Positions 7,668 through 34,871 of a stretch of 45,722 nucleotides of DNA are shown piece after piece. The stretch covers positions 1 through 45,722 of the forward strand of contig JALTKX010000204.1 in the NCBI GenBank assembly GCA_027006055.1, given 5' to 3'. Below the pieces are notes generated by a model. The model was not told where the DNA came from. It ran no database searches and worked only from the letters and a program-made list of their open reading frames with translations. Both the position numbers and the translations under genes were made by a program. Origin of the DNA: Calditrichia bacterium (GTDB lineage: Bacteria; Calditrichota; Calditrichia; Calditrichales; J004). The first letter of the stretch is position 1. Each line of letters begins with the position of its first letter.

Positions 7668-8639
7668 ATGAAGTTCAAACGGCGCATTTTGGAGAATGTC
7701 GGCTGTCAGCCGGAGGTGTGGCGGGGCAAAAGTTTCCGCAAGCTGGCGCGGGACGTGCGGGACGCGATGAACGACGACGAGTTTCTGGCCCTGGTGGGCA
7801 AACCCGGCTGCGGCAAAAAGACGGTGGTCAACGCGGTGTGCATGGAGATTGAAGAGGAGAACAAACGGGGTCTAAAGCCCTTCCACCATATCGTCCACGT
7901 GCAGAGCATGGATAAGGAGCGCATCCGCATCGGGCAGATCGCCAACGCCATTATTTTTGATATGAGCGACGAGCGGCCCAGGCGCGACCCGGAGGCGCGC
8001 ACCCGGCAACTGGCGCGCATACTGGGCCGGGCCGTGGTGGGCAACGGTGAAAAGGTAACGGTGATCGTGGGACAGGCGCACCGCCTGCACCCCAACACCA
8101 TCCGGGCCATCAAGGAATTGCGGGAGCTGACCTTTTTGGGGCGCATGGACTTGTTCGGCGTGGTACTGATCGGTCACCCGCCGCTTAAGAGCAGGATCGA
8201 AAACCTGAACGACGTGATCCTGCGGGTGGAAATAGAGATGATGGACGAGGCGCATGGCTGGATGACCGGCGCGGAACGGCGGGAATATCTTAAAACGGTT
8301 TTTAACGGTCTGCTTACTCCCTCCATGCGCGAGCAAATCAGCATGAGCTGCAACACACCGCTGGAGATGGACAGGCTGATCTATAACAAGATGAAAGAGG
8401 TCTTTTTGCGCGGCTCGGATCACTTTGAGGAGGCGGATTTTATGCTGGAGCTGAAAACGGTTATTGAGAAGTCGGGTCTGAGCTATGACAAGATCGCCCG
8501 GGCCACGCCGCGCGGACTGAGCAAGGCCACGGTGGGCCAGGTGGTTAACGGCAAGTATGACAACCCGGAGGTGATCGCCGAGGTACGGGCTACCATCGCC
8601 CGGCTGACGGCCGGAAAGGAAAAGGAGGCGGCGGCATGA
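7668..8639 (+). CDS. MuB-type transposition AAA ATPase
   Basis: A 323-residue target-selection protein that would form filaments on DNA and deliver targets to the transposase. The AAA core starts near residue 35. The Walker A region is GKPGCGKKT (residues 44-52): the Ser/Thr after GK is Lys, with Thr one place later. The Walker B position reads VTVIVGQAHRLHP (131-143), with Gly-Gln where Asp-Glu is expected. The C-terminus carries an HTH-like segment (SYDKIARATPRGLSKATVGQVVNG), unlike MuB where the HTH is N-terminal. The ribosome site is AAAGGAGAAG. Both nucleotide motifs look degenerate, so ATP hydrolysis may be weak or absent. Family and position are nonetheless clear. Confidence 0.85.
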   Translation: MKFKRRILENVGCQPEVWRGKSFRKLARDVRDAMNDDEFLALVGKPGCGKKTVVNAVCMEIEEENKRGLKPFHHIVHVQSMDKERIRIGQIANAIIFDMSDERPRRDPEARTRQLARILGRAVVGNGEKVTVIVGQAHRLHPNTIRAIKELRELTFLGRMDLFGVVLIGHPPLKSRIENLNDVILRVEIEMMDEAHGWMTGAERREYLKTVFNGLLTPSMREQISMSCNTPLEMDRLIYNKMKEVFLRGSDHFEEADFMLELKTVIEKSGLSYDKIARATPRGLSKATVGQVVNGKYDNPEVIAEVRATIARLTAGKEKEAAA

Positions 8640-8827
8640 CACGGGAAGAGAAAGACAAACTGTTTGAGTATGACGAGAGCTATCTCTATCAGATATCCTG
8701 GATCGACAGGATGATCGAGAAGCTGGAAAAACATAAAGACCGCCTGCACCGGCGGCAACTGACACTTATATCCCGGCGCAAAAGAAAGGAGGCCATGCGC
8801 CGGACACGTGGATTACGGGTTAATTGA
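8636..8827 (+). CDS. small basic helical phage protein
   Basis: A 63-residue protein overlapping the MuB-type gene (ATGA), hence translationally coupled. It is predicted to be fully helical, with an acidic N-terminus and a very basic C-terminus (DRLHRRQLTLISRRKRKEA). No family was recognised. The basic tail suggests nucleic-acid contact. It could assist the ATPase, but this rests on position only. Confidence 0.6.
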   Translation: MTREEKDKLFEYDESYLYQISWIDRMIEKLEKHKDRLHRRQLTLISRRKRKEAMRRTRGLRVN

Positions 8828-8873
8828 CAGAACGGAACGGGCGTTAACCAATAACCTAAATGAGGATAGTATT

Positions 8874-9359
8874 ATGATTATCAAATCGTGGGAAGATGTG
8901 GACAACGCCCTGATGGAAATACGCTCGCTCAAGAACGAGCTGGATCAAAGCATCATCGAGACGGACAAAAAGGTTTTGCCCTTGCAGAAGAAGATCAACG
9001 AAATCCAGGAGAAAAACGCGGCCCGCAACGAAAGCAAGGCCAAAAAGCTTTTTGAGCTGGAAGAACAGATCGAATCTTTCGCCTGGAAGAACCTGGAAGC
9101 CGGAACGAGCAAAAAGCTGGGTTACGGCGTGGTGCAAATCCGCAAGGGCAAGCCGAAAATCGACCTGATCGATGACGCTAAGACGGTACTGGAAAAGGTG
9201 AAAAAGGCTTTCCGCAAGCGCTATGTGCGCATCACGGAGGCGCTGAACAAAACGGCGGTGATGGATGACTACCGTAAGGAAAAGCTGGACGATGAACAAC
9301 TGCGCGAACTGGGCATGAAGGTGATCAGCGAGCCGACATTCAGCTACAAGGTAGGGTAA
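8874..9359 (+). CDS. Gam-like host-nuclease inhibitor
   Basis: A 161-residue Mu Gam-family protein, which binds double-stranded DNA ends and shields them from host exonuclease. The long N-terminal helix pair (DVDNALMEIRSLKNELDQS to about residue 70) is followed by the diagnostic segment SFAWKNLEAGTSKKL, then GYGVVQIRKGKPKI and the C-terminal helices. This is the order seen in Gam, a homologue of eukaryotic Ku. ATG 8874 is preferred over the open-frame ATG at 8808 because GAGGA precedes it and the extra residues overlap the previous gene. It is located after the B gene, as in Mu. Confidence 0.88.
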   Translation: MIIKSWEDVDNALMEIRSLKNELDQSIIETDKKVLPLQKKINEIQEKNAARNESKAKKLFELEEQIESFAWKNLEAGTSKKLGYGVVQIRKGKPKIDLIDDAKTVLEKVKKAFRKRYVRITEALNKTAVMDDYRKEKLDDEQLRELGMKVISEPTFSYKVG

Positions 9360-15931: not shown

Positions 15932-17125
15932 TTAAAAAACAAAATCGGTTGACCGTTTAAGGGGCGGAGCGTTCTCGTCCACGCGCACGCCGAAGGTTTC
16001 GAACTGCTTGGGATCGACCTCCCCGCCCATGTCCCAGTATAGTTTTAGCGCTTCGCGGATTTCAGAGCGAGAAAGAATATCGTTTTTGACCAGCACGGGA
16101 CGCAGGGGCGCGGGCGCGGGAAAGTTAAGCGTTAACAGCGGTCTGACGAATCCGGCATAGAGCCAGCGCACGGCAAAGCGGCGGTCGGCGGCGGCCAGGT
16201 CTTCGCGCACCTGCATGGCTCCGGTCTCGTTGCCCAGTTTGCCGGGGGTACTGTCGGCGGCGGCGCTATGCCCCAGAATGGCCTTGGACAGTCCGGCCTC
16301 GCTGGCGGCCACCAGGTCGCCAAAGGTTTGCCCGCCGGTGCGGCTGTTTTCCACAAATTCGATTTTGGCGCTCATGGGCATGGCGGCCGCGCCGTCCTGC
16401 CCCAGGTTGTAGACGGCTTCCCAGACCTGGTCGCGGATTTCCTTGCCCGCTCCGTCGGGATAGCGGCCGACGCGGAAGGGATCGGAAAAGACCTCGATGA
16501 AATGGGCCCAGCTTTCGTAACCGAAATTTTTGAGCACATAGGGTTTAAGGCAGCGCAACAGGATGGCTTTTTTGGAGCGCACCTTTACGGCATAGATACT
16601 GTCGCGCGGGGTATCGGCAAAGCTTTTGCGCTTCGATCCCGACCAGATATACAACTCGTCGCGGTCGAACTGAAAGAGATCGTTGTCCTGGTGATTGAAA
16701 CCGGACAGCACCAGGCGGTTGTCCCGAATTTCCCAGTGGGGTTCGATGACGCGGAACAAGCGCAGCTTGGCTTCCAAAATTTCCTCAATCAGATCATCGA
16801 CCTGGATATTCTCAAAGACCTGCTTCAAAAAATCGCGTTGGGCGTCCACGGCGCTGCCCTCTTCGGCCGAGCTGAACTCCAGGGAGAGGCCGGAGGTGGC
16901 CGAAAGGCGGGAGCTAATGCAACCCTCGGCGTGCTCGTCGAGGGCGATCTTGTTAAAAATGGGCTCGATAAGCGATGGGTCGCCGTTGAGAAAACCGGTC
17001 AGGGCGTTTTTAAGCACCTGCGGCGTCACCTCGCTACGGGGAAGGGGCTTTTCTTTTTTGACAACATCGGTGCGGGCCTGACTGCCGATCAGGCGCGTCA
17101 GCCAGTTCTTAATGGGCTTGATCAT
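15932..17125 (-). CDS. portal protein (gp29/DUF935 type)
   Basis: A 397-residue protein forming the portal ring through which DNA enters the head. It has N-terminal VVKKEKPLPRSEVTPQVLK, then the DUF935 features SLIEPIFNKIALDEHAEGCI, a tryptophan-anchored strand (VIEPHWEIRDNRLVL), GYESWAHFIEVFSDPFRVGRY and GLSKAILGHS. It is shorter than Mu gp29 (512 residues), mainly at the C-terminus. It lies directly downstream of the large terminase on the minus strand, the same order as Mu gp28-gp29 but in inverted orientation relative to the capsid genes. Confidence 0.85.
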   Translation of the reverse strand: MIKPIKNWLTRLIGSQARTDVVKKEKPLPRSEVTPQVLKNALTGFLNGDPSLIEPIFNKIALDEHAEGCISSRLSATSGLSLEFSSAEEGSAVDAQRDFLKQVFENIQVDDLIEEILEAKLRLFRVIEPHWEIRDNRLVLSGFNHQDNDLFQFDRDELYIWSGSKRKSFADTPRDSIYAVKVRSKKAILLRCLKPYVLKNFGYESWAHFIEVFSDPFRVGRYPDGAGKEIRDQVWEAVYNLGQDGAAAMPMSAKIEFVENSRTGGQTFGDLVAASEAGLSKAILGHSAAADSTPGKLGNETGAMQVREDLAAADRRFAVRWLYAGFVRPLLTLNFPAPAPLRPVLVKNDILSRSEIREALKLYWDMGGEVDPKQFETFGVRVDENAPPLKRSTDFVF

Positions 17126-17138
17126 GGCATACTCCTTG

Positions 17139-18701
17139 TTAATGCAGTCGCTTGCGCTTAAAGGTGCGCTTAACGACGGACATAATGGTGAACTCGGTGC
17201 CCTCGGCGTCCAGGATGTCGATGGCCGAGCGCAGGGCGTCGGGGCCGTCCTTGTCCGGGTGATCCGGATAAAAAACGAACTGATCGCGCAATTCGATTTG
17301 GTCGGGATCGGTCAGGTCGAACAGGATATCGCCGCGCTCGATAAGACCGCTGCATGACTCGATGCGCAGGTTTTTGTCAATCGTGTTGACATGCGGCAAA
17401 ACGGGAAAGCGCCAACCCTTGCGGCGGGCGGCGTCGTCATAATCGCGCTTAAGCTCGTCAAGCTGGGCGAAGTTGTTTTCCACGTAGGTATTGCGCAGGC
17501 CGACGGGCTGATCGCGCCAGCGCTGCCACATGGCGTACTGGGCGTCAATCATGGCGCTGATGCTGGCGTTGCGTATCCAGGCGTCGAGCACGACATAATG
17601 GGTGCCCGTCCAGCCGAGCATGATCACGGCTTTTTTACAGGCTGATTTGCTTTTACCGGTGCTGGGATCGGTATAGATCACACTGCGGGCGACGTCCGGC
17701 CGCGCGGCGTATTGCTTGAACCATTCTTCTCGAAAGACGCGCCCCTCGGAAACGGGATTGAGCTTATACTCGCGCTCATAAGCCACGGTGCCGACGGCCT
17801 TGCGCAGATTGTCGCACACGGCGCGGGTTTTGACCGAGGGCCACAGCAAGCCGTTTTTGAAGCGGGCGCGGCGGGCCTCGTCCATGTCGGTCTCCGCGTC
17901 TATTTCCAGCGGATAAAAAAGGATAAAACGCTTTCCGGCAAAGTCGGGCGACTGTTCGGTTTCGTTTTTGAACAGGGCGGCGGCGCACTTTTTGCCGGGC
18001 AGATTGGACAACCAGATGACATTGCCGTTGCTGTTCATCACCGGATAGAGTTCCTCGAGCACAAACTCCTTCTTTTCGTTACTGATCTTGATGTTGCGGG
18101 CGGTCTGTTTGTTTTCGAAGTCCTCAATGACAATCAGATCGGGGCGGTGCGGGCCGTTAAGGAGGCCGCGCACATGGCCCTTGTAGCCGAAGGGTTTGAA
18201 ACGCACACCGTTGCGCAGAGTGAAGTCGTCCATCTCCCACAGGCCGGGGTTTTTCATGGAGCCGAAGTCGTGCAGTATGCGGGGGTTGCTTTCCAGCTCG
18301 GCCTTAACGGCGATAAGCCGGTCGATGGCCAGGTCTTCCGTGTGGGCAACGTAAACGATGTAATTGCGCCGCTCAAAAAGGGCCTGGTGCAGGGGGTAGC
18401 CGACGGCGTTCTGCACGGTTTTGCCGGTTTCCCGCGCGCCGATAACCAGGGTGATGGTGCCCTTGCGCTTTGCGGCATGCGCGTCCATTTCGCGGTGATG
18501 CCAGTTGGGCTTCAGGTCGAAATAGTGCGGCAGATAGGTCTTATAGAAATAAAACCTGTCTTTGCGGGCGCGGTTGATGCGCCGGGCCTTCTTTTCCGGG
18601 GTGTCATTGGGAAAAGGGGCGACGTCGCGGCTGACGATCTTTTTCTGTTCGGCCAGCATCTTCTCCAGCTGGGCGATGCCGGTAATTTTGCGGGCGATCA
18701 T
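17139..18701 (-). CDS. terminase large subunit (gp28 type)
   Basis: A 520-residue ATP-driven DNA-packaging motor and nuclease. The N-terminal region has FYFYKTYLPHYF and NWHHREMD. Walker A is GARETGKT (residues 88-95) and the Walker B acidic stretch is LIVIEDFE (189-196). The C-terminal RNase-H-like nuclease begins with IYTDPSTG, followed by HYVVLDAWI and LRDQFVFYPDHPDKDGPDAL, where DGPDAL is a typical last active-site segment. It overlaps the small terminase gene by four bases. Mu-type phages package by a headful with flanking host DNA. Confidence 0.9.
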   Translation of the reverse strand: MIARKITGIAQLEKMLAEQKKIVSRDVAPFPNDTPEKKARRINRARKDRFYFYKTYLPHYFDLKPNWHHREMDAHAAKRKGTITLVIGARETGKTVQNAVGYPLHQALFERRNYIVYVAHTEDLAIDRLIAVKAELESNPRILHDFGSMKNPGLWEMDDFTLRNGVRFKPFGYKGHVRGLLNGPHRPDLIVIEDFENKQTARNIKISNEKKEFVLEELYPVMNSNGNVIWLSNLPGKKCAAALFKNETEQSPDFAGKRFILFYPLEIDAETDMDEARRARFKNGLLWPSVKTRAVCDNLRKAVGTVAYEREYKLNPVSEGRVFREEWFKQYAARPDVARSVIYTDPSTGKSKSACKKAVIMLGWTGTHYVVLDAWIRNASISAMIDAQYAMWQRWRDQPVGLRNTYVENNFAQLDELKRDYDDAARRKGWRFPVLPHVNTIDKNLRIESCSGLIERGDILFDLTDPDQIELRDQFVFYPDHPDKDGPDALRSAIDILDAEGTEFTIMSVVKRTFKRKRLH

Positions 18702-19144
18702 AAGCGGCTCAGGGTTTGTTTGAGAAAATCGCCGATGGCGTTGTTAAGGGGCACGGTTAACAGCTCCGGGCTGTGGTCGCGCAAAAAACGTTGGAACTTA
18801 TCCAGCACGTCAAAGGCGATGCCCATGTAGTTGGATTCGCGCATGACCGACTCGCGGGCCTTGGAGAGCTTGGCCAGGGCGTCGCTTTCCTTGCCGTCCA
18901 GGGCGCGTTTTTCCTCGCGGGCCCGGTTGAGTATAACCAGCATGGAGCGCTTGAACTCCGCCGCGAGGGCCGCCGGACTGATGGTTTTTCCTTCCCGCTC
19001 GGCCTTCCAGTCCTCGTTTTGGGCCCAGGCATATACGGTGCTGCGGGCCAGTCCCAGGGTCTCGGCGATCTCGGCGATTTCCCGGCCTTCGTAGACGTAG
19101 AGCATACGGGCGTATTGCTGTTGATTGATGCGATCCTGTTTCAT
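18698..19144 (-). CDS. terminase small subunit (gp27/DUF1804 type)
   Basis: A 148-residue protein beginning at ATG 19144, supported by AAAGGATTATC; the longer open frame to 19192 lacks a site. The N-terminal HTH (ARMLYVYEGREIAEIAETLG then LARSTVYAWAQNEDW) binds packaging sequences. It is followed by a coiled helical region (RAREEKRALDGKESDALAKL) for oligomerisation. This is the layout of Mu gp27 and DUF1804 small terminases. It is the first gene of the leftward packaging operon, divergent from the protease/scaffold gene. Confidence 0.85.
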   Translation of the reverse strand: MKQDRINQQQYARMLYVYEGREIAEIAETLGLARSTVYAWAQNEDWKAEREGKTISPAALAAEFKRSMLVILNRAREEKRALDGKESDALAKLSKARESVMRESNYMGIAFDVLDKFQRFLRDHSPELLTVPLNNAIGDFLKQTLSRL

Positions 19145-19303
19145 GATAATCCTTTCCGTGTAAGCAACAGCCCCAATATGGGCATGAGGCACACATTATA
19201 TCTATATGTTCGGTACGGATAAGCGCATAGCGTCAGGTTATCCTTGCACGGGGTGGTAATCCCTTGCTATCCTTAGCCTGCAACGCAAAAACAAGGATGC
19301 ACC
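19145..19303. promoter_or_regulatory. divergent late promoter region
   Basis: A 159-bp gap between leftward packaging and rightward capsid genes. The minus strand has TATAAT (complement of 19195-19200) without a recognisable -35 box. The plus strand has TTGCAC (19244-19249) and TATCCT (19268-19273), 18 bp apart. Two near-copies of a TTATCCTTGC/TAATCCCTTGC element (about 19238 and 19257) could be activator sites. Weak or missing -35 boxes fit promoters that need a phage activator, as Mu late promoters do. Confidence 0.5.
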
Positions 19304-20404
19304 ATGCTCAGATTTCGCATACATAATCACGCCGACGTCCGCAAGGGGATCATCTGGCTGCACGACATTATCGGCGTCGAGGACAATACCTCGGCCGAGG
19401 TGGCCCGCGTGCTCAACCAGATGGAAAGCAACGGCGTGAGCAAGTTTGAGGTGCATATCAACAGTCCGGGCGGACTGGTTTTTGACGGCCTGGCCATCTA
19501 CAACATGCTGAGGGAGCGGGATACGGATATCATCATCGATGGAATCGCGGCCAGCATTGCCAGCGTGATCGCCTGCGCCGGGCAGAATGTGAAGATGTAT
19601 AAGAATACTTTTTTCATGATTCACAATCCCTGGACGTTCGCGGCGGGCGACGCCGATTATATGCGCAAGCTGTCCGACCAATTGGATCAGATCAGGGAAT
19701 CGATCACCCAGGCGTATGCCGAGCGTACCGGTCTTAATGCCGAGACGCTGACGGCCATGATGGACGAGGAGAGTTACATCAACGCCGAGGACTCCCTGGA
19801 ACTGGGCTTTTGCACGGAGATCATCGACAAAAAAAGCTCCGTGGACACGGAGAAAATCAAGAATCAGTTTTTGAACCTCATCAAAGGAGACGACCCCATG
19901 AGAGAATTTTTAATCCAATTGCTGGCCCTGGCGGCCACGGCCACGGACACGGATATTCAGAACGCTCTGAAGGCGCTGAAATCCAACGCCGATCAGGTGG
20001 ACGACCTGGTGGCGCAGGTGGCGGAGCTACAAAGCAAAATCGAATCCGGCGGGGATTCTGGTAGCGGGAGCGGAGGCACGGAAATTGACGCGCTGAAAGC
20101 GTCGATTGAGAGCCTGACAACGGTTGTTAACGACCTGAGCAAGGAGAACAGGCGCATTAAGGCCCAGGCCGCCGTGGATCAGGCGATCAGCGAAGGTAAG
20201 ATATTCCCGGCGCAGCGCGAGGATTACATGGCGACGGCCGAGGCCGATCCGCAGGCCTTTTTGGCGCGGGTGGAAAAGATGCCGGTGCTTTTTGATCCGC
20301 AAAACAAGATTGATTTTGGCGGCGACGGCGACAATGACGACGCGCCGATGAGCAAAACGGAAAAATTTAAGGCAGCCATGCGCAAAAAACAGGCCGTGGC
20401 CTAA
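19304..20404 (+). CDS. ClpP-like prohead protease fused to scaffold (Mu gpI-like role)
   Basis: A 366-residue head maturation protein. The N-terminal half is a ClpP-type serine protease: HINSPGG at 51-57, catalytic Ser84 in GIAASIAS and His107 in FMIHNPW. After a break near residue 195 the C-terminal half is scaffold-like: helical, with a Gly/Ser linker (GGDSGSGSGG), a coiled segment and KIFPAQREDYMATAEADPQAF as in phage I-type proteins. Mu gpI is the functional equivalent. The start follows AAGGATGCACC. The scaffold half has its own start signal, listed separately. Confidence 0.88.
   Translation: MLRFRIHNHADVRKGIIWLHDIIGVEDNTSAEVARVLNQMESNGVSKFEVHINSPGGLVFDGLAIYNMLRERDTDIIIDGIAASIASVIACAGQNVKMYKNTFFMIHNPWTFAAGDADYMRKLSDQLDQIRESITQAYAERTGLNAETLTAMMDEESYINAEDSLELGFCTEIIDKKSSVDTEKIKNQFLNLIKGDDPMREFLIQLLALAATATDTDIQNALKALKSNADQVDDLVAQVAELQSKIESGGDSGSGSGGTEIDALKASIESLTTVVNDLSKENRRIKAQAAVDQAISEGKIFPAQREDYMATAEADPQAFLARVEKMPVLFDPQNKIDFGGDGDNDDAPMSKTEKFKAAMRKKQAVA
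19898..20404 (+). CDS. internal-start scaffold protein (Mu gpZ-like nested gene)
   Basis: Within the protease gene, AAAGGAG (19883-19889) stands 8 bp before an in-frame ATG at 19898 (MREFLIQLLALAATATD), exactly at the protease/scaffold junction. Mu makes its scaffold Z from an internal start in gene I in the same way. The product would be a 168-residue free scaffold. The internal translation is inferred from a strong site at the domain border. Confidence 0.65.
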   Translation: MREFLIQLLALAATATDTDIQNALKALKSNADQVDDLVAQVAELQSKIESGGDSGSGSGGTEIDALKASIESLTTVVNDLSKENRRIKAQAAVDQAISEGKIFPAQREDYMATAEADPQAFLARVEKMPVLFDPQNKIDFGGDGDNDDAPMSKTEKFKAAMRKKQAVA

Positions 20405-20422: not shown

Positions 20423-21337
20423 ATGTTACTAAGAGAATTATCCCCGGCGGGACAGGCGGAAGCGCTTTTTTTGACGGAAGCGGAAAACAAGGGCCCCATC
20501 CTGCGCTATCTGGAGTTCGAAACGATTGTGGGCAACGCCGACCAGTGGCGCAAGGCCAGCGCGGCCACGGGCGGTAAATTCCGCGCCCTGGACGCCGACT
20601 ACGTGGCAAACAAACAGACGCCGAGCTTCGCCAGCGTGGCGCTGAAAATCTTTGGCGACAAAATCGAGACCGATATCGCCCACGAGCGGCGCGGACAGGA
20701 TATCGAAAGCGTGCACATGCGCAATGTGCTGCGCTTTGCCAAAGACCTGGGCGCCAAGTTCCAGTATGAGTTCGTCAACGCCACCGGCGCGGGCGACGAC
20801 TTTGTGGGTATCAAATCCCAGGTGGCGGCGGATCATATTCTGAGTCCCGGCGGCGCCAATGGCACGAATATCGCTTACGGTCAGGACGCCAACATCGAGA
20901 AGCTGTTGGGCACGATGCGCGAACTGCTGGCCTACAATCTGACCTTCTGGCTGGCCGATATCACCTTTATCAGCCGCCTGACCAACATCCAAAACAGTCT
21001 GGTAACGATTAATCGCGACGAGCTGGGCAATACTATTGTGCAGTTTGGCGGGGTGCCGATGGTGCCCGCCGGGCGCAAGGGTCTGACCCAGGGCGACGCC
21101 AAAACCCTGCCCGCCACGGAGACCAAGGGCACGGCGGCCAACATATGCCAGTCCGTTTACGCGATCCGCTCGGAAGAGATCGGCGGCGTGGCGGCGGCCA
21201 GCAATACCGGGCTTGACCTGGATCACTTCGGGCATGTGGCGGATGACCGTTGCTATCGCAGCGTGGCGGAATTTGACGCCGACATCATCAGTCTGGAAGA
21301 CGACGCCCTGTGGCGCATCGAAGGCATTAACTTCTAA
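20423..21337 (+). CDS. major capsid protein
   Basis: A 304-residue protein, probably of the HK97 fold as in other Mu/B3-like phages. It immediately follows the protease/scaffold gene with a GGAGTGAGC site and precedes a strong terminator. It shows an N-terminal arm and E-loop-like part (TGGKFRALDADYVANKQTPS), a long helix (RRGQDIESVHMRNVLRFAKD) and a C-terminal beta region (VQFGGVPMVPAGRKG, HFGHVADDRCYRSV). No single motif is diagnostic; the call rests on size, order and overall pattern. Confidence 0.8.
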   Translation: MLLRELSPAGQAEALFLTEAENKGPILRYLEFETIVGNADQWRKASAATGGKFRALDADYVANKQTPSFASVALKIFGDKIETDIAHERRGQDIESVHMRNVLRFAKDLGAKFQYEFVNATGAGDDFVGIKSQVAADHILSPGGANGTNIAYGQDANIEKLLGTMRELLAYNLTFWLADITFISRLTNIQNSLVTINRDELGNTIVQFGGVPMVPAGRKGLTQGDAKTLPATETKGTAANICQSVYAIRSEEIGGVAAASNTGLDLDHFGHVADDRCYRSVAEFDADIISLEDDALWRIEGINF

Positions 21338-21421: not shown

Positions 21422-21895
21422 ATGGCACGTACACAGGCCAACATCAAAAAACGGCATTACCGGGTTTTGCACCGCAGTCCGGCCAGTTTTTCCGTACCGG
21501 CGTCGGCGGCGGAGTTCGCCACCTTTCTGGGCACCTTCACGGAGCTGGGCTACTGCCGGGACAAGACGATTAAGGTGACGATTAACAAGGGCGACCAGGA
21601 GACGCTGGACGACGGCACCAAGCTGTTGCAGGGTTACAACTGCAAGACCGAGGGCATACTGTTGCAGAGCGAGCCGGGCGATTACACGGCTTACGAGACA
21701 ATCGAAAACGTTAAGCAGGATATTCTGCTGTACGCCCAGAGCACCAAGCAGTGTATCTTTTTCCCCAACGCGCTTCTGGCCTTTGAGGAAGCGGTCACCT
21801 CCGGCGAGACGGAGAGCGTTCCGTTCAGCTTTGAGGCGGAAAACGTGGGCAGTAAGTCCGATTTCCGCACGCGCTTTGCCGAAAGCACGGCGTAG
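21422..21895 (+). CDS. probable tail tube protein
   Basis: A 157-residue protein with the beta-rich, Thr/Val/Glu-rich look of siphovirus tail tube subunits (KTIKVTINKGDQETLDDGTKL ends a strand-turn region; ESVPFSFEAENVGS is a further strand). It lies between the major capsid gene and the lysis/tail genes, and no other tube candidate was found. No family is recognised with certainty. A capsid decoration protein is an alternative. The ribosome site is AAAGGGTATTATC. Confidence 0.55.
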   Translation: MARTQANIKKRHYRVLHRSPASFSVPASAAEFATFLGTFTELGYCRDKTIKVTINKGDQETLDDGTKLLQGYNCKTEGILLQSEPGDYTAYETIENVKQDILLYAQSTKQCIFFPNALLAFEEAVTSGETESVPFSFEAENVGSKSDFRTRFAESTA

Positions 21896-21906
21896 GCATA
21901 ACGATT

Positions 21907-21979
21907 CGCGGCGTGGAGCAACTGGCTGCTCGCCTGGCTCATACCCAGGAGGTTGCGGGTTCGAATCCCGCCGCCGCTA
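21907..21979 (+). tRNA. initiator-type tRNA-Met (CAT), phage-borne
   Basis: A full 73-nt cloverleaf can be drawn. The acceptor CGCGGCG pairs with CGCCGCT except at position 1-72 (C-T). The D stem is GAGC/GCTC with an 8-nt loop containing GG. The anticodon stem is CCTGG/CCAGG with loop CTCATAC, giving anticodon CAT. The variable loop is AGGTT, and the T arm is GCGGG-TTCGAAT-CCCGC. The discriminator is A, and CTA follows, so CCA is not encoded. The unpaired 1-72 position and the A11-T24 pair are marks of bacterial initiator tRNAs. The three consecutive G-C pairs of the initiator anticodon stem are not all kept (T-A at one position). It lies between tail and lysis genes. Confidence 0.9.
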
Positions 21980-22006
21980 CTAACCCTTACCCGGAAGAGC
22001 ATAAGA

Positions 22007-22049
22007 CCCGGACGCGCCCTCCTTTCACCTCCAATTAATCGCGTCCGGG
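22007..22049. other. hairpin downstream of the tRNA
   Basis: CCCGGACGCG and its exact complement CGCGTCCGGG are separated by a 23-nt pyrimidine-rich loop; AT-rich sequence but no T-run follows. It lies between the tRNA and the amidase ribosome site (AGGAG at 22061-22065). It could be a processing or weak termination structure for the tRNA transcript. Confidence 0.5.
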
Positions 22050-22073
22050 AATTATGCGAAACAGGAGATCATT

Positions 22074-23078
22074 ATGAAATCATTTTTTTTGCGCTTTGAG
22101 ACCTTTTTCCGCATGCTGACCCTGCGCAATTGGGGCGCGCCCTATCATTATATCATCGTCAACATGTCCACCATGCTGGTGATCGCCGTTTTTGACATGC
22201 GCACCATGTATCACCCGGCGATGCCTTTTTATACGGCGCTGTTAATCGTGGGCATTATGATTTATGAGTTTTGGCAGCGGACAAAGGGTCAAACCTGGCA
22301 GGGCATGTTTGAGGATATGGCCTTTAACGCGGCGGGTTATATTTTCGCGGTCATCCCGCTGATACAGCACTCTCCCGATGTGAGCACGCTCAGCCTTATG
22401 GGCATGAGCCTGGCGGCGCTGCCGTTCGTGTTCGGGAAGAAAATCAAGGTGTGTATCGACGCCGGTCACGGCGGGAAAGACCACGGCGCGGTTTACGAGG
22501 GGGTGGCGGAAAAAGATGTGACTCTGCGCGCGGCGCTGATTTTACGCGAGTATCTTAAGGCCCTGGGCATGGACACGGTGATGGTGCGGGAAGAGGACAG
22601 GGATATCGACCTGGGACGGCGTATTCATATTCCCAACTCGGAACTGGCCGACCTGTTCGTCAGCCTGCACGCCAACGCCTCGCCCAGTTCGTTTCCGTTC
22701 GGCATCCAAAGCTATTATTACAGCGAGGTGACGCGCAAGCGCATCGGCGGCGTGATCCAGGCGGCCCTGGAAAAGGTATATAGCCGGGAAAGCACCTGGA
22801 ATAAGGCCGAATACGGTAACTTTTATGTACTGCGGCATACGGCCATGCCCGCCGTGCTGGTGGAGATGGGTTTTTTGAGCAACGCGCACGACCGGGAGCG
22901 GCTGACAAATGACTATTATGTACCGGCGCTGATGGAGGCGCTGGCCAGGGCGATTAACGAATTACAAGGGGTTGACGATGGAGCAAGCGGCAACAATCAA
23001 GGACCTGATGCGCCTGCAAAAGGAAACGCTGGACGCCATAAACGTGGTAAGCGTGGAAATCGCAAAACTCAAGGTTAA
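22074..23078 (+). CDS. membrane-domain/N-acetylmuramoyl-L-alanine amidase fusion (holin-endolysin-like)
   Basis: A 334-residue lysis protein with two parts. Residues 1-121 hold four hydrophobic segments (about 25-42, 50-67, 83-99 and 106-121), like a multi-pass holin. From residue 124 an Amidase_3 domain follows: DAGHGG with His132, Glu146 in EGVAEKD, His199 in SLHANA and Glu264 in VEMGFLSN, the full zinc and catalytic set. It would cut the bond between muramic acid and the stem peptide. The C-terminal tail is basic (KRGKRGNRKTQG). No stop or start lies at the junction, so this is a true fusion frame. The start follows AGGAGATCATT. Confidence 0.85.
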   Translation: MKSFFLRFETFFRMLTLRNWGAPYHYIIVNMSTMLVIAVFDMRTMYHPAMPFYTALLIVGIMIYEFWQRTKGQTWQGMFEDMAFNAAGYIFAVIPLIQHSPDVSTLSLMGMSLAALPFVFGKKIKVCIDAGHGGKDHGAVYEGVAEKDVTLRAALILREYLKALGMDTVMVREEDRDIDLGRRIHIPNSELADLFVSLHANASPSSFPFGIQSYYYSEVTRKRIGGVIQAALEKVYSRESTWNKAEYGNFYVLRHTAMPAVLVEMGFLSNAHDRERLTNDYYVPALMEALARAINELQGVDDGASGNNQGPDAPAKGNAGRHKRGKRGNRKTQG

Positions 23079-26716: not shown

Positions 26717-26901
26717 GCGAGGAAAACCCGGAGGAGGCTATCGACCGGGAATCGTTGCTGTACCAGGTTTGCGACGGCGACATACGCCGCCGCCGGGAGA
26801 TGGAAAACATGAAGGTGAGCGCGGTACACATCTGGGCTATGTACAACATGACCCGCCGCCCGCCGCTGAACTACGGAAAAAAGGACGATGGCGAAGTTTA
26901 A
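26611..26901 (+). CDS. tail assembly chaperone, -1 frameshift extension (gpGT-like)
   Basis: The frame entered by a -1 slip at the T9 run is open for 96 codons: it begins FIKQDCADKIERVRER, continues through an acidic segment (GETEEYSLSEENPEEAIDRE) and ends in the tail-chaperone-like VSAVHIWAMYNMTRRPP. It stops at 26901, 14 bp into the tape measure gene. It has no credible start of its own. With the upstream part it would give a product of about 192 residues, the long chaperone that binds the tape measure. Confidence 0.8.
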   Translation, partial: FIKQDCADKIERVRERLGIPVAGDGDAGETEEYSLSEENPEEAIDRESLLYQVCDGDIRRRREMENMKVSAVHIWAMYNMTRRPPLNYGKKDDGEV

Positions 26902-29323
26902 GGATATCAATTTTCTGCTGAAGCTCAGCCCGGAACAATTTAACAAGGTTGTCAGCCAGGCACGGGCGGAATACGGCAAAACCAAGGCCAAGGTGGAAAA
27001 GCCCATGCGCATGCGTCTGGATGTGACCAAGGCGCTTAACGGCATGGCCACGCTGGGCCTGGCGCTGAGCGGTATCCGTCAAAGTTATAACCTGATCGCC
27101 GGGCCGCTGAAAGAGGTTACCCGGCTGAGCGATATCCAAGAGCGGGCCGATAACCGGCTGGCCACCTCCCTGCGCAACGCCGGGGACGCCACAAAGGAGA
27201 CCTACACCGAAATGCGGGAGTTCGCTTCCTGGATTCAGACGGTGACTACCGTCGGAGACGAACAGGCGGAGATGCTGACCTCGATGGCGCTGAACATGCA
27301 GGCGCCGATCGATAAAACCAAGGAGGTGGTCAAAAACGCCATCGCCCTGAGCAAGGCTTACGAGCTGGATATGAACGTGGCCATCCGCGCCGCCGTTTCC
27401 GCCCTGGATGACAACTACTCTATGCTTACCCGCTATATACCCGCCCTGCGCACCGCCAACAGCGAAGCCGAAAAGGCCGCCGTGTATCAAAGAACCGTGG
27501 CCGACGGCTGGACAACCGCCACCGAGGAGCTCAAAACCAACGCGGGCGCGCTGGAAGATTTTCAGAACACGATCGGCGACGTTAAGGAAGACCTGGGCGA
27601 TTTTGTAAAGGCCGGTATCGTGCCGGTGATTAAGGTGCTTAAGCCCCTGCTTGACGGATTTGCCAGCCTGGATCAGGGCACGCAACAAGCTTCATTATCC
27701 ACCTTAACCCTGCTGGCGGTCGGTTCCCGCGTTCCGGCCATGCTGGCGGGCATCCGCGCCGGTATTGCCACGCTTAACGCCTCGCTGGGGCCGGTGGGCT
27801 GGCTGATATTGGGCGTCAGCGCCGTGGCCACGGCCTGGATCACCTATTCCAGCAATGCCGACGAGGCGGCCAAAAGCAACAAAAATCTTGCTGATTCCAA
27901 CCGTGATCTTAAGGACTCTTTCGACAGCGTTTTAGACCGCACGCGCAAGATAACCGAAGCCCTGTCGCTTACGGGATTGCAGACCCGGCAACAGGCCACG
28001 GCCAATGCCATTACCAAGACCATCGGCGTGATCCAGGGCCTTTACCGCGACCTGGAGAGCGCGGAAAACCAGGTGCAGAAAACGCGGATTGAGAACAGTA
28101 TTAAAGCTAATGAGGAACTGTTGGCCCGGCAAAAAGAGGAATATGACGCTTTTGAAAAGCTGATCAATGAGCGGCGGGAACGGCTGGCCCAGGCGGAAAG
28201 CAATTTGACCAAGGAGCAACAGGAGGCGCTGGATAAGCGCAAGGCTTATGAGTTTGAGACAAACCGCATCACCCTGGCGGAATATGTCGCCTATCTGGAA
28301 TCGCGCAAGGAGGCGGTGCGCATCAGCCTGGGCGAGGAGACGGCCGAATATCTGCAATTTATTGACAAGCTGGAGGGGTTGAAATTACAGCTTAAGGCTC
28401 CGCAGTTAACCGGGGATCAAACCGACCCGGTAACCTCGTCCATCAAGCGACAGCAACAGGCCTTTATTGATCTGGGACAAGTGTCCACCGATTACAACGA
28501 TATGATTTTCGAGCAGATGCAGGCGCAGTATGACTACCGGTCGAGTATTATTGAGTCCGGTCTTGCCCTGGCGGAAAAGGCTCACGGTCGGGAGTCGAAG
28601 CAATATGCGGACATGCTGCGCACGCGGGAACAGAACGACGCCAATTATCAGAAAGCCCGCGAAAATCTGGAAAAAGAAGGGGCCAGGGCGATCCTTTCCA
28701 TCGGCGCAAGGCTGATGAATGCCTTCCAGGGAGAGAATCAGTTCTTTTTCGAGGCGGGGAAAGTATCCTCGGCGGGTATGGCGGCCATCAACACGTATGA
28801 GGCGGCCACGATGGCCCTGAAATCCTATCCCCCGCCCTACGGGGAGATCGCCGCCGCCGCCAACATTGTTTTCGGCCTGCTTCAGGTGCAAAAGATTCTG
28901 TCCACCAAATATCAGCCGCCGAAAAAGCCTAATGTTAAGGGTTTGGCCGGTGGCGGTCCGGTAACTTCGGCCATGTTGTTTGATTCAATTTTCACCCCGG
29001 AGGGCGAAGACGGCATCGCCGGGTTGCAGATTGGTGAGTATGTGCACGATAGGGAGACAACGCGCAAGTATTTTCCGCTGTTGGAGTCTATGCGCAGGGG
29101 TACTTTTCCCGTGCCCGCCTATGCCAGCGGCGGCCCGGTAACCGAGGTGGCCACGGCGCAGGCGCCTTTGTTTGATCCGGCCCTGTTGGGCGCGGCCGTT
29201 GAAGATGCCGTCGTAGAAGGCTTTCGCCAGTCACGCCTCAAAATCGAGGGTGAGTTTTTCGCGGCGGGGAAAGAGCTAAAAGCCTCGCTGGACAAGTTGG
29301 CGTCGTTAAAGGAGACGGTGTAA
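26888..29323 (+). CDS. tail tape measure protein
   Basis: An 811-residue protein that sets tail length and helps DNA entry. It has a long alpha-helical build with hydrophobic segments (LAVGSRVPAMLAGIRAG, GPVGWLILGVSAVATAWI), extended coiled coil around residues 340-500 and a Gly/Pro-rich C-terminal third (LAGGGPVTSAMLFDS). It is the longest tail gene after the spike and directly follows the chaperones. At three bases of DNA per residue and about 1.5 angstrom per helical residue, the tail would be of the order of 120 nm. The start overlaps the frameshift product. Confidence 0.88.
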   Translation: MAKFKDINFLLKLSPEQFNKVVSQARAEYGKTKAKVEKPMRMRLDVTKALNGMATLGLALSGIRQSYNLIAGPLKEVTRLSDIQERADNRLATSLRNAGDATKETYTEMREFASWIQTVTTVGDEQAEMLTSMALNMQAPIDKTKEVVKNAIALSKAYELDMNVAIRAAVSALDDNYSMLTRYIPALRTANSEAEKAAVYQRTVADGWTTATEELKTNAGALEDFQNTIGDVKEDLGDFVKAGIVPVIKVLKPLLDGFASLDQGTQQASLSTLTLLAVGSRVPAMLAGIRAGIATLNASLGPVGWLILGVSAVATAWITYSSNADEAAKSNKNLADSNRDLKDSFDSVLDRTRKITEALSLTGLQTRQQATANAITKTIGVIQGLYRDLESAENQVQKTRIENSIKANEELLARQKEEYDAFEKLINERRERLAQAESNLTKEQQEALDKRKAYEFETNRITLAEYVAYLESRKEAVRISLGEETAEYLQFIDKLEGLKLQLKAPQLTGDQTDPVTSSIKRQQQAFIDLGQVSTDYNDMIFEQMQAQYDYRSSIIESGLALAEKAHGRESKQYADMLRTREQNDANYQKARENLEKEGARAILSIGARLMNAFQGENQFFFEAGKVSSAGMAAINTYEAATMALKSYPPPYGEIAAAANIVFGLLQVQKILSTKYQPPKKPNVKGLAGGGPVTSAMLFDSIFTPEGEDGIAGLQIGEYVHDRETTRKYFPLLESMRRGTFPVPAYASGGPVTEVATAQAPLFDPALLGAAVEDAVVEGFRQSRLKIEGEFFAAGKELKASLDKLASLKETV

Positions 29324-31604: not shown

Positions 31605-31634
31605 ATTGGTAGTTTATTAGATTATCTCAGTTTT
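31605..31634. promoter_or_regulatory. right prophage end
   Basis: GTTTATTAGATTATCTCA ends at 31629 and reads on the opposite strand as TGAGATAATCTAATAAAC, matching the left end (TGAGATAA, 3 extra bases, TCTAAT). Beyond it the sequence (GTTTTGTGATTTG) has no similarity to the left flank. The nearest inner copy at the left end (2523-2537) is even closer in sequence. Confidence 0.6.
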
Positions 31635-31707: not shown

Positions 31708-32613
31708 ATGGCAAACCGTAATAAGGAAATAGTCGTTTACAATACAAACTTTATTCAAAAAAAGATATACACGATCCGCGGTATGCAGGTGATGCTTGAT
31801 GAAGATTTATCTATGTTATACGGTGTTGAAACGAGAAGGTTGAATGAACAAGTAAAAAGAAATATCGAACGATTTCCTGAAAAATTCATGTTCCGCTTAT
31901 CCAAAGAAGAATACAGAAACTTGATGTCGCAAATTGCGATATCAAGTCCTGGGCACGGGGGAAGAAGAAAACTCCCTTATGCCTTTACCGAACAAGGCGT
32001 GGCCATGCTCTCCGCCGTGTTGCGCAGCGAAACCGCGGTAAAAGTAAGCATTCGTATTATGGAAGCGTTTGTCGCCATGCGCCGCTTTATGCTGACTAAT
32101 GCGCAAATATTTCAAAGGCTAGATACGCTGGAAATGAAACAAGTTGAAACCGATAAAAAAGTGGATCAGGTTTTATCGGCTATTGAAATGAAAAAAATCC
32201 AACCCAAACAGGGCGTCTTTTTTAACGGGCAGATTTTTGATGCCTACAAGTTCGTTTCCGGGCTGGTGCGTAAAGCCAATACATCTATTTTACTGATTGA
32301 CAATTATATCGATGAAACCGTTTTAGACCTTTTCAGCAAAAAGAAAAAGAATGTTAAAGTGACAATATTTACCGGCAAAATTAACAAAGACCTGGAACTG
32401 GACGCCAAAAAATTCAACGCTCAGTATCCAACCCTTGAGATAAAGAAATTCAGCAAAGCCCACGATCGCTTTTTGATTATTGATGATAAAAATGTTTACC
32501 ACTTTGGCGCGTCGCTGAAGGATTTGGGCAAAAAGTGGTTCGCCTTTTCCAAGATGGATAAATCGGCGTTTGCGTTGATGGAAAATTTGAAAAAGGTGAT
32601 GGGCGATGAGTGA
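31708..32613 (+). CDS. ORF6N-domain protein with PLD-like C-terminus
   Basis: A 301-residue protein. The N-terminal ORF6N DNA-binding domain covers about residues 15-105 (KKIYTIRGMQVMLDEDLSML, RFPEKFMFRLSKEEY, FTEQGVAMLSAVLRSE). A short coiled linker follows, then a phospholipase-D-like domain (about 175-300) with SILLIDNYIDETVL and HDRFLIIDD, a variant of the HxK motif. Proteins of this type are common passengers in type I R-M operons, where their role is not known. ATG 31708 is the first gene after the prophage; its 3' end overlaps the next open frame. Confidence 0.85.
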   Translation: MANRNKEIVVYNTNFIQKKIYTIRGMQVMLDEDLSMLYGVETRRLNEQVKRNIERFPEKFMFRLSKEEYRNLMSQIAISSPGHGGRRKLPYAFTEQGVAMLSAVLRSETAVKVSIRIMEAFVAMRRFMLTNAQIFQRLDTLEMKQVETDKKVDQVLSAIEMKKIQPKQGVFFNGQIFDAYKFVSGLVRKANTSILLIDNYIDETVLDLFSKKKKNVKVTIFTGKINKDLELDAKKFNAQYPTLEIKKFSKAHDRFLIIDDKNVYHFGASLKDLGKKWFAFSKMDKSAFALMENLKKVMGDE

Positions 32614-32622
32614 AGATGGATT

Positions 32623-32645
32623 TTCGATTTTCGATTGGGGATTTT
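32623..32645 (+). repeat. left copy of 23-bp direct repeat flanking the four-helix-bundle gene
   Basis: A 23-bp element built on GATTTTCGATT. Its partner at 33023-33045 differs at one position only (G or C after TTCGATTGG). The copies are exactly 400 bp apart and bracket the four-helix-bundle gene. Confidence 0.8.
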
Positions 32646-32648
32646 GTG

Positions 32649-33005
32649 ATGGATAAAGAAGATATCAAAAAAAGAACTAAAAAGTTGGCTATTCAGATTA
32701 TAGAATTTTGCGATACTTTGCCAAGACAAACAAAGTATTTTGTCATTGAAAAGCAACTAATACGTTCGGCAACTTCTGTCGGCGCCAATTATCGTGCCGC
32801 CTGTCGTGGAAAATCTAAAGCAGATTTTATCGCTAAATTAGGCATTGTAGAAGAAGAAGCGGACGAAACGCTTTATTGGTTGGAATTGATCGTTGAATTG
32901 GATAATCATTATCGTGAAAGAGTAACTCCACTGTACAAAGAAATGAATGAAATACTTTCTATTGTTGTGGCAAGCAAGAAGACGGCAAGGAAAAACAAAA
33001 AATAG
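32649..33005 (+). CDS. four-helix-bundle protein (S23/23S rRNA intervening-sequence family)
   Basis: A 118-residue helical protein. It shows the family hallmarks LAIQIIEFCDTLP, KQLIRSATSVGANYRAACRG, KADFIAKLGIVEEEADETLYWLEL (in two pieces) and a basic tail. Relatives were first known as the ORF in intervening sequences of bacterial 23S rRNA genes and form pentamers. The function is unknown, but nucleic-acid binding is often suggested. ATG 32649 (MDKEDIKK) is preferred over the open-frame ATG at 32610, which would translate the left direct repeat. The gene lies between 23-bp direct repeats, as if inserted as a cassette between ORF6N and hsdS. Confidence 0.88.
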   Translation: MDKEDIKKRTKKLAIQIIEFCDTLPRQTKYFVIEKQLIRSATSVGANYRAACRGKSKADFIAKLGIVEEEADETLYWLELIVELDNHYRERVTPLYKEMNEILSIVVASKKTARKNKK

Positions 33006-33022
33006 ATTTACGATTTAGGATC

Positions 33023-33045
33023 TTCGATTTTCGATTGGCGATTTT
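33023..33045 (+). repeat. right copy of 23-bp direct repeat flanking the four-helix-bundle gene
   Basis: Partner of 32623-32645 with one mismatch. It lies in the gap before hsdS, which also carries further degenerate GATTT(T/A)CGATT units (33003-33055). Confidence 0.8.
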
Positions 33046-33062
33046 CGATTTGAAGGAATTTT

Positions 33063-34274
33063 ATGAAGGACAATTGGAAAACATATAAAATTAAAGATGT
33101 TGTTGAAGTTGTTATGGGACAATCCCCACCTTCAATTACATACAATGACAAAAAAAATGGATTACCTTTTTATCAAGGCGTTGTTGATTTTGGAAGAAGA
33201 TTTGTTAATGAAAGGATTTATTGTACTGAACCAAAAAAAATAATAGATGAAAACTTTGTATTATTAAGTGTAAGAGCGCCTGTCGGAAAAGTTAATCTAA
33301 CAAAACGAAAATGTGCAATCGGGCGGGGAAATGCTGGACTTAGAATGAAAAATGGTGAAAAATTATTTTTATTCTATTTACTAAAGTATTATGAAGATAA
33401 TTTTCATTCGAATTCAGAAGGAACGGTATTTTCTTCCATAAACAAATCGACAATCGAAAATCTCGAAATCGAAATTCCTCCTGTTTCCGAGCAAAAAGCC
33501 ATTGCCGCGGTACTCTCCAGCCTGGATGACAAAATAGACCTATTGCACCGCCAAAACAAAACCCTGGAAGCCCTGGCCGAAACCCTGTTCCGGCAGTGGT
33601 TCATCGAACCCTTCGACCCCGCTCAGGGCGGGAAAGCGCAGGATGATTGGGAAGAAGTTAGTCTATTTGATGCAATTGAATTAGTAGGTGGTGGCACTCC
33701 TAAAACATCCATCTCTGATTATTGGAATGGAAATATCAATTGGCTATCTGGCGGTGATATAGCAGCGAGTCATAAAGGGATTATTGTACATACTGAAAAA
33801 ACAATCACGGAAAAGGGATTAGAAAATAGTTCAACTAAGTTATTACCTGAATTTTCTACAGTTATATCTGCACGGGGAACAGTTGGTAAATACTGCATAT
33901 TATCTAAGCCAATGGCTTTTAGTCAATCAAACTATGGAATAAAACCCAAATTTTCAGATTGCTATTTTTTTACATATCTATTGATAGCGCATTCTGTTGA
34001 AGAGTTAAAGTCAGCTGCCTATGGAAGTGTCTTTGATACGATTACAACAAATACATTCAAAGAACACATGCTATCTCTCCCAAAACCAGAAGTCATTAAG
34101 GATTTTGAAAATGAAGTGAAGCCATTATTTAAAAAAATATTAAATAACCAATTACAAATCCGCACGCTGGAAAAACTGCGCGACACCTTGCTGCCGAAGT
34201 TGATGAGCGGGGAAGTGCAGGTGAAAATGTCTGAACCACAGATGGGCGCAGATGAATTGATTGCGCAGATGTAA
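33063..34274 (+). CDS. hsdS: type I R-M specificity subunit HsdS
   Basis: A 403-residue subunit that reads the bipartite target sequence. Two target-recognition domains are present: the first about 1-140 (VEVVMGQSPPSITYND to IENLEIEIPPVSEQKAI), then a conserved helix (LDDKIDLLHRQNKTLEALAE), and the second about 193-355 (AIELVGGGTPKTSISDYW to HMLSLPKPE), then a closing helix (LRDTLLPKLMSGEV). The recognition domains are AT-rich and the helices GC-richer, a common sign of domain shuffling. The linker after FRQWFIE carries an extra PFDPAQGGKAQDD. GAAGGAATTTT precedes ATG 33063. Confidence 0.93.
   Translation: MKDNWKTYKIKDVVEVVMGQSPPSITYNDKKNGLPFYQGVVDFGRRFVNERIYCTEPKKIIDENFVLLSVRAPVGKVNLTKRKCAIGRGNAGLRMKNGEKLFLFYLLKYYEDNFHSNSEGTVFSSINKSTIENLEIEIPPVSEQKAIAAVLSSLDDKIDLLHRQNKTLEALAETLFRQWFIEPFDPAQGGKAQDDWEEVSLFDAIELVGGGTPKTSISDYWNGNINWLSGGDIAASHKGIIVHTEKTITEKGLENSSTKLLPEFSTVISARGTVGKYCILSKPMAFSQSNYGIKPKFSDCYFFTYLLIAHSVEELKSAAYGSVFDTITTNTFKEHMLSLPKPEVIKDFENEVKPLFKKILNNQLQIRTLEKLRDTLLPKLMSGEVQVKMSEPQMGADELIAQM
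33611..33645 (+). repeat. short palindromic in-frame insert in the hsdS linker
   Basis: CCCGC-TCAGG-GCGGG forms a 5-bp hairpin inside the codons PFDPAQGGKAQ, between the central helix and the second recognition domain. The peptide PFD-AQG recurs in translated repeats of several FCB genomes, as I recall. In a variable linker, so the case for an insert is moderate. Confidence 0.45.
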
Positions 34275-34367
34275 AAACATTTGAAAGTAGCGGGTTTAAT
34301 AAAATGAAATGGATACAATATTTGATAAATTTTTTTGAAAATCTGTGTAATCCGAAAATCATAACAT

Positions 34368-34388
34368 AATCTGCGGTTCAGACAATGG
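34368..34388 (+). repeat. left copy of 21-bp direct repeat flanking the GxxExxY gene
   Basis: A 21-bp sequence beginning AATCTGCGG and ending GACAATGG, identical to 34841-34861; the unit length is 473 bp. The ATG of the GxxExxY gene lies at the end of this copy. Confidence 0.9.
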
Positions 34389-34795
34389 GTGAAGAATATA
34401 AATATAAAGATTTAACCCATAAAATCATCGGTTGCGCCATGGCGGTTCATAATACGCTGGGCAATGGGTTCCAGGAGGTTATCTATCAAAGGGCCCTGGC
34501 GATTGAGCTGGCGCAGGCCGGGCTTGACTTTCAACGGGAATTGGCAATGCCCATCTTTTACAAGGAACAGCAGATCGGTACCCGACGGGTTGATTTTCTT
34601 GTTGAAAATAAAATTATGGTTGAATTAAAAGCCATTACCCAGCTCGAAAAAGTTCACCTGGCTCAAGCACTAAATTATTTGGAAGCATACAAACTGGAAA
34701 TTGGTTTATTGATAAATTTTGGCAACACTTCACTGCAATTCAAAAGAATTATCAATGAACGGAAATTGAAACGAAGTAAAGAATCAAAGGAATAA
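34385..34795 (+). CDS. GxxExxY protein (PD-(D/E)xK_3 nuclease-like)
   Basis: A 136-residue protein of the GxxExxY family. The name-giving motif is GNGFQEVIY near residues 27-35 (G-x-x-E-x-x-Y inside), followed by ALAIELAQAGLDFQRE and the nuclease-like core RRVDFLVENKIMVELKAI, with Asp and Glu-x-Lys in the positions of PD-(D/E)xK enzymes. Such genes occur singly in many genomes and their role is unknown. It separates hsdS from hsdR and lies between identical 21-bp direct repeats, so it looks like a late insertion. The C-terminal tail is basic. Confidence 0.9.
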   Translation: MGEEYKYKDLTHKIIGCAMAVHNTLGNGFQEVIYQRALAIELAQAGLDFQRELAMPIFYKEQQIGTRRVDFLVENKIMVELKAITQLEKVHLAQALNYLEAYKLEIGLLINFGNTSLQFKRIINERKLKRSKESKE

Positions 34796-34840
34796 AATCT
34801 GCAACCCCCTGAATCAGCGGAATCAAATAATCTGCGCTCC

Positions 34841-34861
34841 AATCTGCGGTTCAGACAATGG
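34841..34861 (+). repeat. right copy of 21-bp direct repeat flanking the GxxExxY gene
   Basis: Identical to 34368-34388, ending 10 bp before the hsdR start. The ATG in this copy (ATGGATGTTCAAG) runs into hsdR's leader, so the repeat seems to represent the original hsdR upstream sequence. Confidence 0.9.
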
Positions 34862-34871
34862 ATGTTCAAGA

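Follow-up and report, generated by a model that had tools for sequence, protein, structure and literature searches.

An initiator-type tRNA gene among the late genes of a transposable prophage, and the 29:41 pair of viral initiator tRNAs

Gene neighbourhood of the tRNA

The window, by which we mean the whole 45,722-nt stretch of Calditrichia DNA analyzed here, contains a prophage with a tRNA gene among its late genes. The genome containing the window (~86% complete) is referred to as the host. The features needed for the argument are the following.

2459–31633, no strand: approximate extent of the transposable prophage, ~29 kb, with TTAGATTATCTCAGTT near both ends; ends approximate
6117–7634, plus: MuA-like transposase (phrog_310, E 2e-19)
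7668–8639, plus: MuB-like DNA transposition protein (phrog_296)
8808–9359, plus: Mu Gam-like end-protection protein (phrog_491)
15932–17125, minus: portal protein
17139–18701, minus (strand opposite to the tRNA): terminase large subunit
19304–20404, plus: ClpP-like head maturation protease
20423–21337, plus: major capsid protein, ~25% identity to annotated capsids of Gordonia and Streptomyces phages
21422–21895, plus: 157-aa late protein with no family match, directly upstream of the tRNA and co-directional
21907–21979, plus: initiator-type tRNA gene (ARAGORN and Rfam), anticodon CAU, C1xU72, A11-U24, A73, no encoded CCA
21933–21949, plus: anticodon arm CCTGG CTCATAC CCAGG, in which U29 (21935) pairs with A41 (21947); C38 at 21944
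21999–22057, plus: strong hairpin between the tRNA and the lysin ribosome-binding region, −30.2 kcal/mol, z −4.1, no U-tract
22074–23078, plus: amidase (Amidase_3) endolysin, directly downstream of the tRNA and co-directional
26888–29323, plus: tape measure protein

The prophage has the marks of a transposable (Mu-like) phage, namely MuA-, MuB- and Gam-like proteins and an ordinary gene region as insertion site. From left to right it encodes transcription regulators and the three Mu-like proteins, followed by a minus-strand block with portal and terminase and a plus-strand block with the head protease, capsid, 157-aa protein, tRNA, lysin, tape measure and tail genes. For a Mu-like phage it is unusual that the minus-strand block (15932–19192; portal, terminase large subunit and a terS-like gene for a small DNA-binding protein) precedes head and tail genes lying on the opposite strand. 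The terminal motif TTAGATTATCTCAGTT, found at about 2522 and 31618, recurs as TTAGATTATCTCAGTT / AACTGAGATAA at 2477–2493, 2522–2537 and 31618–31633, and these copies are likely transposase-binding end sequences; the exact prophage ends and a target duplication could not be fixed. The host gene flanking the prophage on the left is hsdM (734–2437); on the right lie an ORF6N protein, hsdS and hsdR, followed by a META-domain protein, SurE, GMP synthase and GlmS. The prophage splits a type I restriction operon, with hsdM on one side and the ORF6N gene, hsdS and hsdR (31708–38867) on the other. No tyrosine integrase was found in the prophage. Searches of viral contigs for sister phages with the capsid, lysin and terminase proteins gave no close relative; nor did capsid searches of genome contigs. 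Within the class only one weak relative was found, and no relatives of the 157-aa protein were found in three same-genus genomes.

With ~19 kb of prophage on one side and ~10 kb on the other, the tRNA is phage-encoded. It sits within the head module, ~3.2 kb from the terminase gene, in a 178-base gap and in the same direction as its neighbours. Since no strong promoter-like site of its own was found in this gap and no intrinsic terminator was detected after it, the tRNA is likely transcribed by read-through with the late genes. The hairpin at 21999–22057 is not a classical intrinsic terminator, because it has no U-tract; roles in RNA processing or protection, or in the control of lysin synthesis at translation, are conceivable.

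Structure of the tRNA and comparison with the host initiator

ARAGORN called a tRNA-Met(cat) at 21907–21980 on the plus strand, and the Rfam model RF00005 covered 21907–21979 end to end (58 bits, E 4e-10); the two agreed on this as the only tRNA in the window. Divided by stems, and compared with the window letter by letter, it reads CGCGGCG TG GAGC AACTGGCT GCTC G CCTGG CTCATAC CCAGG AGGTT GCGGG TTCGAAT CCCGC CGCCGCT A, with the anticodon CAU (positions 34–36) at 21940–21942. Position 1:72 is an unpaired C.U without a Watson–Crick pair, and the D stem has A-U at 11:24. A sequence-only reading of the same DNA had described an initiator-type tRNA with these three characters, and both programs and the letter check bear it out; the T-A that it saw in place of one anticodon-stem G-C pair is U29-A41. 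The folding energy of the 73-nt tRNA is unremarkable (z = −1.5, against z = −1.7 for the host initiator), and the tRNA call depends instead on the covariance model and on compensatory changes.

In the textbook account, the ribosome recognizes an initiator tRNA by three consecutive G-C pairs in its anticodon stem (29–31:39–41). The phage tRNA departs from this pattern at 29:41 alone, where U29-A41 replaces G29-C41, while G30-C40 and G31-C39 are retained. We therefore call it initiator-type rather than a canonical initiator.

A canonical initiator gene is present in the host genome itself (G000:C257:7107-7180), next to an elongator tRNA-Met. It shares with the phage tRNA the anticodon CAU, C1xU72, A11-U24, G30-C40, G31-C39, A73 and the absence of an encoded CCA, and differs from it in having G29-C41 instead of U29-A41, A38 instead of C38 (a feature that had escaped the sequence-only reading) and a 9-nt instead of an 8-nt D loop, and in not being phage-borne. 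The missing CCA had been noted as an oddity. The absence itself is real, CTA being the sequence directly 3′ of the phage tRNA, but most tRNA genes of the host genome also lack CCA and the host initiator too has C1xU72, so that neither feature is odd in the phage tRNA. Outside the D loop, 52 of 65 positions are identical between the two tRNAs. The comparison with the host tRNAfMet, which had been proposed as a check, revealed six differing pairs (6:67, 27:43, 28:42, 29:41, 51:63 and the tertiary pair 15:48), all six altered on both sides with pairing preserved, indicating that the gene is maintained in working order and is not a decayed copy. As judged from these letters, the phage tRNA is intact and has diverged from the host gene in a compensated manner. 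A pseudogene reading is ruled out by the compensated pairs.

These results also bear on the idea that the gene is a functionless passenger, captured as a host initiator gene or as an attachment site. Prophages commonly adjoin host tRNA genes, and the tRNA lacks CCA and lies in an intergenic gap, as such a remnant might. However, every differing pair is compensated, a transposable phage needs no attachment tRNA, the host initiator is intact elsewhere, and comparable genes occur in unrelated prophages of the same class (see below), which makes this explanation very improbable. The earlier suggestion of a captured attachment remnant does not survive the MuA-like transposase, the insertion inside a restriction operon and the intact host initiator.

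The 29:41 pair in viruses and cells

Searching the same class with the tRNA, we detected a second initiator-type tRNA in two further genomes (G005 and G026), in both cases inside a prophage: between a weakly matched terS gene and a terL gene in G005, and between head morphogenesis and protease genes in G026. The expectation that initiators would be exceptional in phages was not borne out, as the U29-A41 subtype by itself was found on at least 120 viral contigs. An initiator-type tRNA is located just after terL in the Xanthomonas phages Elanor and DoCa5 and just before the terminase genes in Sinorhizobium phage phiLM21 and Streptococcus phage Javan59, and Pseudomonas phage D3 also carries one; according to a published report, tRNA-Met or tRNA-fMet genes also occur in prophages resembling phiLM21 (PMC12429752). 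Among viral loci with a U29-A41 tRNA and a detectable terminase large subunit, the two were within 1 kb of each other in 14 of 19, compared with 18% expected for random positions in the same loci, a proportion inflated to an undefined degree because some search seeds were terminases beside such tRNAs. In an unseeded family scan of the tRNA neighbours, terminase, portal and head proteins ranked top.

Some further viral tRNAs may be recorded here. In Erythrobacter phage R6L (L395:1501-1577) and at L270, L271 and L398, a tRNA-Met lies at most ~0.8 kb from terminase and is unannotated in the deposited records. The initiator-type tRNA of Rhizobium phage RHph_TM3_3_3 (L394:1347-1422) has A-U at 29:41 and C-G at 31:39, leaving G30-C40 as the sole pair kept. 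The initiator-type tRNAs of the G005 prophage (L274:8426-8499) and of phage D3 (L273:1501-1576), which are unrelated, keep G29-C41 and have C33 in place of the nearly universal U33.

We surveyed the anticodon stem in viral sequences with the patterns TGGAGC...GCTCG...CTCATA and TAGAGC...GCTCG...TCATA, which leave this stem free. Viral counts refer to unique tRNAs among the matches listed; viral contigs may contain host DNA, and we kept only matches lying 200 bases or more from either end of the retrieved sequence. Among the matches listed, G29-C41 was missing from 122 of 171 viral initiator-type tRNAs (38/62 with the TGGAGC pattern and 84/109 with the TAGAGC pattern), whereas 30:40 was not G-C in only 2/171 and 31:39 in 31/171. 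With the identical TAGAGC pattern, none of the 38 cellular genomes among the matches listed had lost G29-C41, and all of them also had G30-C40, G31-C39 and A38. With the cellular GGAGC patterns, which fix 30:40 and 31:39 as G-C, G29-C41 was present in 260 genomes and replaced by A29-U41 in 17, a loss of 17/277 among the matches listed, the window's own tRNA aside. Fisher tests of viral against cellular tRNAs in the two pattern comparisons gave p = 5e-21 and 1e-18, for sequences that are not phylogenetically independent. Taken together, initiator tRNAs are frequent in viruses, and most of these lack G29-C41, a pair that cells almost always keep. We found no published account of this viral bias in the open-access literature, which is weak evidence of novelty.

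The view that U29-A41 is specific to phages, to which its absence from the other sampled genomes (0/384) had pointed, was overturned by the chromosomal initiators of Patescibacteria in a larger genome collection. In this group (Saccharibacteria and Moranbacteria; L276–L355), U29-A41 is the normal form of the chromosomal initiator, which likewise departs from the three-G-C pattern, indicating that organisms can live and initiate translation with this pair. Saccharibacteria are evidently rare in, or absent from, the 385 sampled genomes, and we claim the association of U29-A41 with viruses solely for bacteria outside Patescibacteria. There, the 12 cellular U29-A41 loci examined were mostly prophage-like: a terminase was found near the tRNA in seven (Lautropia, Sediminimonas, Wallbacteria, Pararhizobium, Phycisphaerae, a Bacteroidetes bin and an unclassified bin), an integrase at one and a phage-type protein at one, and three were not placed.

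The main rival to the reading that we prefer below is simple dosage, in which an additional initiator copy serves to increase translation starts on many late mRNAs, the 29:41 change reflects drift at a tolerant site and no nuclease is involved. In its favour, the gene belongs to the late module here and is found next to a terminase or head gene in many phages, the ribosome contacts 29:41 more weakly (PMC11497404), and cells vary at this position too, with A29-U41 in 17/385 sampled genomes and U29-A41 in Patescibacteria. But outside such special lineages cells hold 29:41 as G-C in 94–100%, and drift should also yield C-G or wobble pairs. The 122 altered viral pairs among the matches listed comprised 79 A-U, 42 U-A, one C.A and no C-G, whereas at 31:39 C-G was the commonest replacement (16/31 among the matches listed). 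The absence of C-G from viral 29:41 speaks against pure drift, and we regard dosage with drift as possible but somewhat unlikely.

The conservation of 30:40, which is G-C in 169/171 viral tRNAs among the matches listed, is relevant to another proposal, that an initiator with only two of the G-C pairs vies with that of the host and upsets the maturation of host ribosomes or the fidelity of start-site choice, to the benefit of phage mRNAs. In Escherichia coli, an initiator stripped of the whole G-C triplet still undergoes charging and formylation, and its overexpression hampers 16S maturation and makes cells more sensitive to a drug directed at IF2 (PMC10486304). That mutant, however, had lost all three pairs including 30:40, and keeping this pair is the opposite of what an inactive decoy would need; interference of this kind seems improbable.

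Another proposal is that the tRNA serves as a general methionine tRNA, both starting and extending chains. Among the matches listed, 1:72 was paired in 58/234 viral initiator-type tRNAs (about a quarter), and the usual initiator has neither A-U nor U-A at 29:41. The window tRNA nevertheless keeps the C1xU72 mismatch, which normally bars initiators from elongation, and we give dual use the least credence.

Proposed function and comparison with known systems

The reading that we prefer, and hold with moderate confidence, builds on what the sequences show: an intact tRNA, its compensated divergence from the host gene, its co-directional location among late genes and, across phages, the loss of G29-C41 while G30-C40 is retained. 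The gene would encode an initiator tRNA of the phage that is functional, under selection and used late in infection, and its altered anticodon arm most likely escapes a factor that targets the host tRNAfMet. The tRNA would be read through with the late head and lysis genes and matured by host enzymes, CCA addition included. Having kept C1xU72, A11-U24 and A73, it would be charged and formylated like the host initiator. In the P site, 16S A1339 docks G30-C40, and G1338 contacts 29:41 more weakly (PMC11497404); the requirement for the P site in initiation was shown with mutants including C30-G40 (PMC2268962) and a triple G-C mutant (PMC10486304). The ribosome would thus grip the phage tRNA mainly through the conserved G30-C40, and viral tRNAs that keep 30:40 and vary 29:41 are as expected of a working initiator under different selection. 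Late in infection the tRNA would add to, or replace, the host initiator pool.

What U29-A41 and C38 most likely evade is an agent acting on the host tRNAfMet, and anticodon-arm nucleases such as VapC are the leading candidates. Enteric VapC cuts tRNAfMet between A38 and C39 (PMC4105405), and C38 of the phage tRNA is the base 5′ of that cut, so that the change lies at or near a known cut site. Position 38 was A in every cellular match whose letters were printed (part of the cellular matches), and C38 was also present in the Phycisphaerae U29-A41 tRNA. Anticodon-loop changes in other phage tRNAs are predicted to block anticodon nucleases (PMC10264068). Of the two roles suggested by the sequence-only reading, more late translation starts or replacement of a cleaved host tRNA, the second finds some support in C38 and in the phage-wide anticodon-arm bias. 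Against this preferred reading, the 29:41 change is also expected from relaxed constraint at a weak contact, and position 38 is not A in just 16/171 viral initiator-type tRNAs among the matches listed (~9%). Of the two PIN-domain proteins of the host, one resembles the 23S rRNA nuclease VapC20 and neither is tied to tRNAfMet cutting; a search of the host for a PrrC/RloC-type nuclease gave no match at the family cut-off and one sub-threshold match. Moreover, enteric phages are reported generally to avoid tRNA-fMet (PMC10264068).

More broadly, and only tentatively, we propose that viral initiators are a recognizable class, repeatedly selected to drop G29-C41 (to A-U or U-A, never C-G) while keeping G30-C40, to start translation and to escape a host factor reading the 29:41 region, the window tRNA being the first noted in a transposable phage. 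If viruses drop the first G-C pair and yet use the tRNA, they offer hundreds of natural experiments on the contacts that initiation needs, and the loss of G-C at viral 29:41 would, if true, point to a cellular nuclease or quality check that reads this pair. It would also argue that phage initiator tRNAs found singly, often next to terminase and in many cases unannotated, recur and are no accidents. Such tRNAs open a new and testable way of asking what viruses gain from tRNA genes: since codon usage inside genes cannot explain an initiator tRNA, they allow a direct test among the codon-supply, dosage and nuclease-escape ideas.

Among known phages, Elanor, DoCa5, phiLM21, Javan59 and D3 resemble the window in having a lone or nearly lone tRNA-Met(CAU) with an initiator-type D stem, several of these being unannotated in the records, but unlike the window phage they are not transposable. 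The first four also have U29-A41, and their tRNA lies within ~0.8 kb of terminase genes; D3 is the exception, and its tRNA, unlike that of the window, keeps G29-C41 and has C33. The Patescibacteria chromosomal initiator shares U29-A41, G30-C40 and G31-C39 with the window tRNA, and differs in being cellular and the organism's main initiator, with A38 and mostly a CGCGGGG acceptor stem. That no tyrosine integrase was found sets the window phage apart from tRNA-dependent lysogeny (Guerrero-Bustamante and Hatfull 2024, PMC10865867), in which a temperate phage likewise carries a single tRNA of an essential isotype; here the phage is not in a tRNA gene and the host tRNA is intact, and this mechanism is ruled out by the transposase, the insertion into a type I R-M operon and the intact host fMet gene. 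The nuclease-insensitive phage tRNAs (van den Berg et al. 2023, PMC10264068) likewise have an anticodon-arm change near a known cut site; the same study, however, found that enteric phages generally avoid fMet, and in the initiator-type tRNAs described here the commonest change is in a stem pair and not in the loop.
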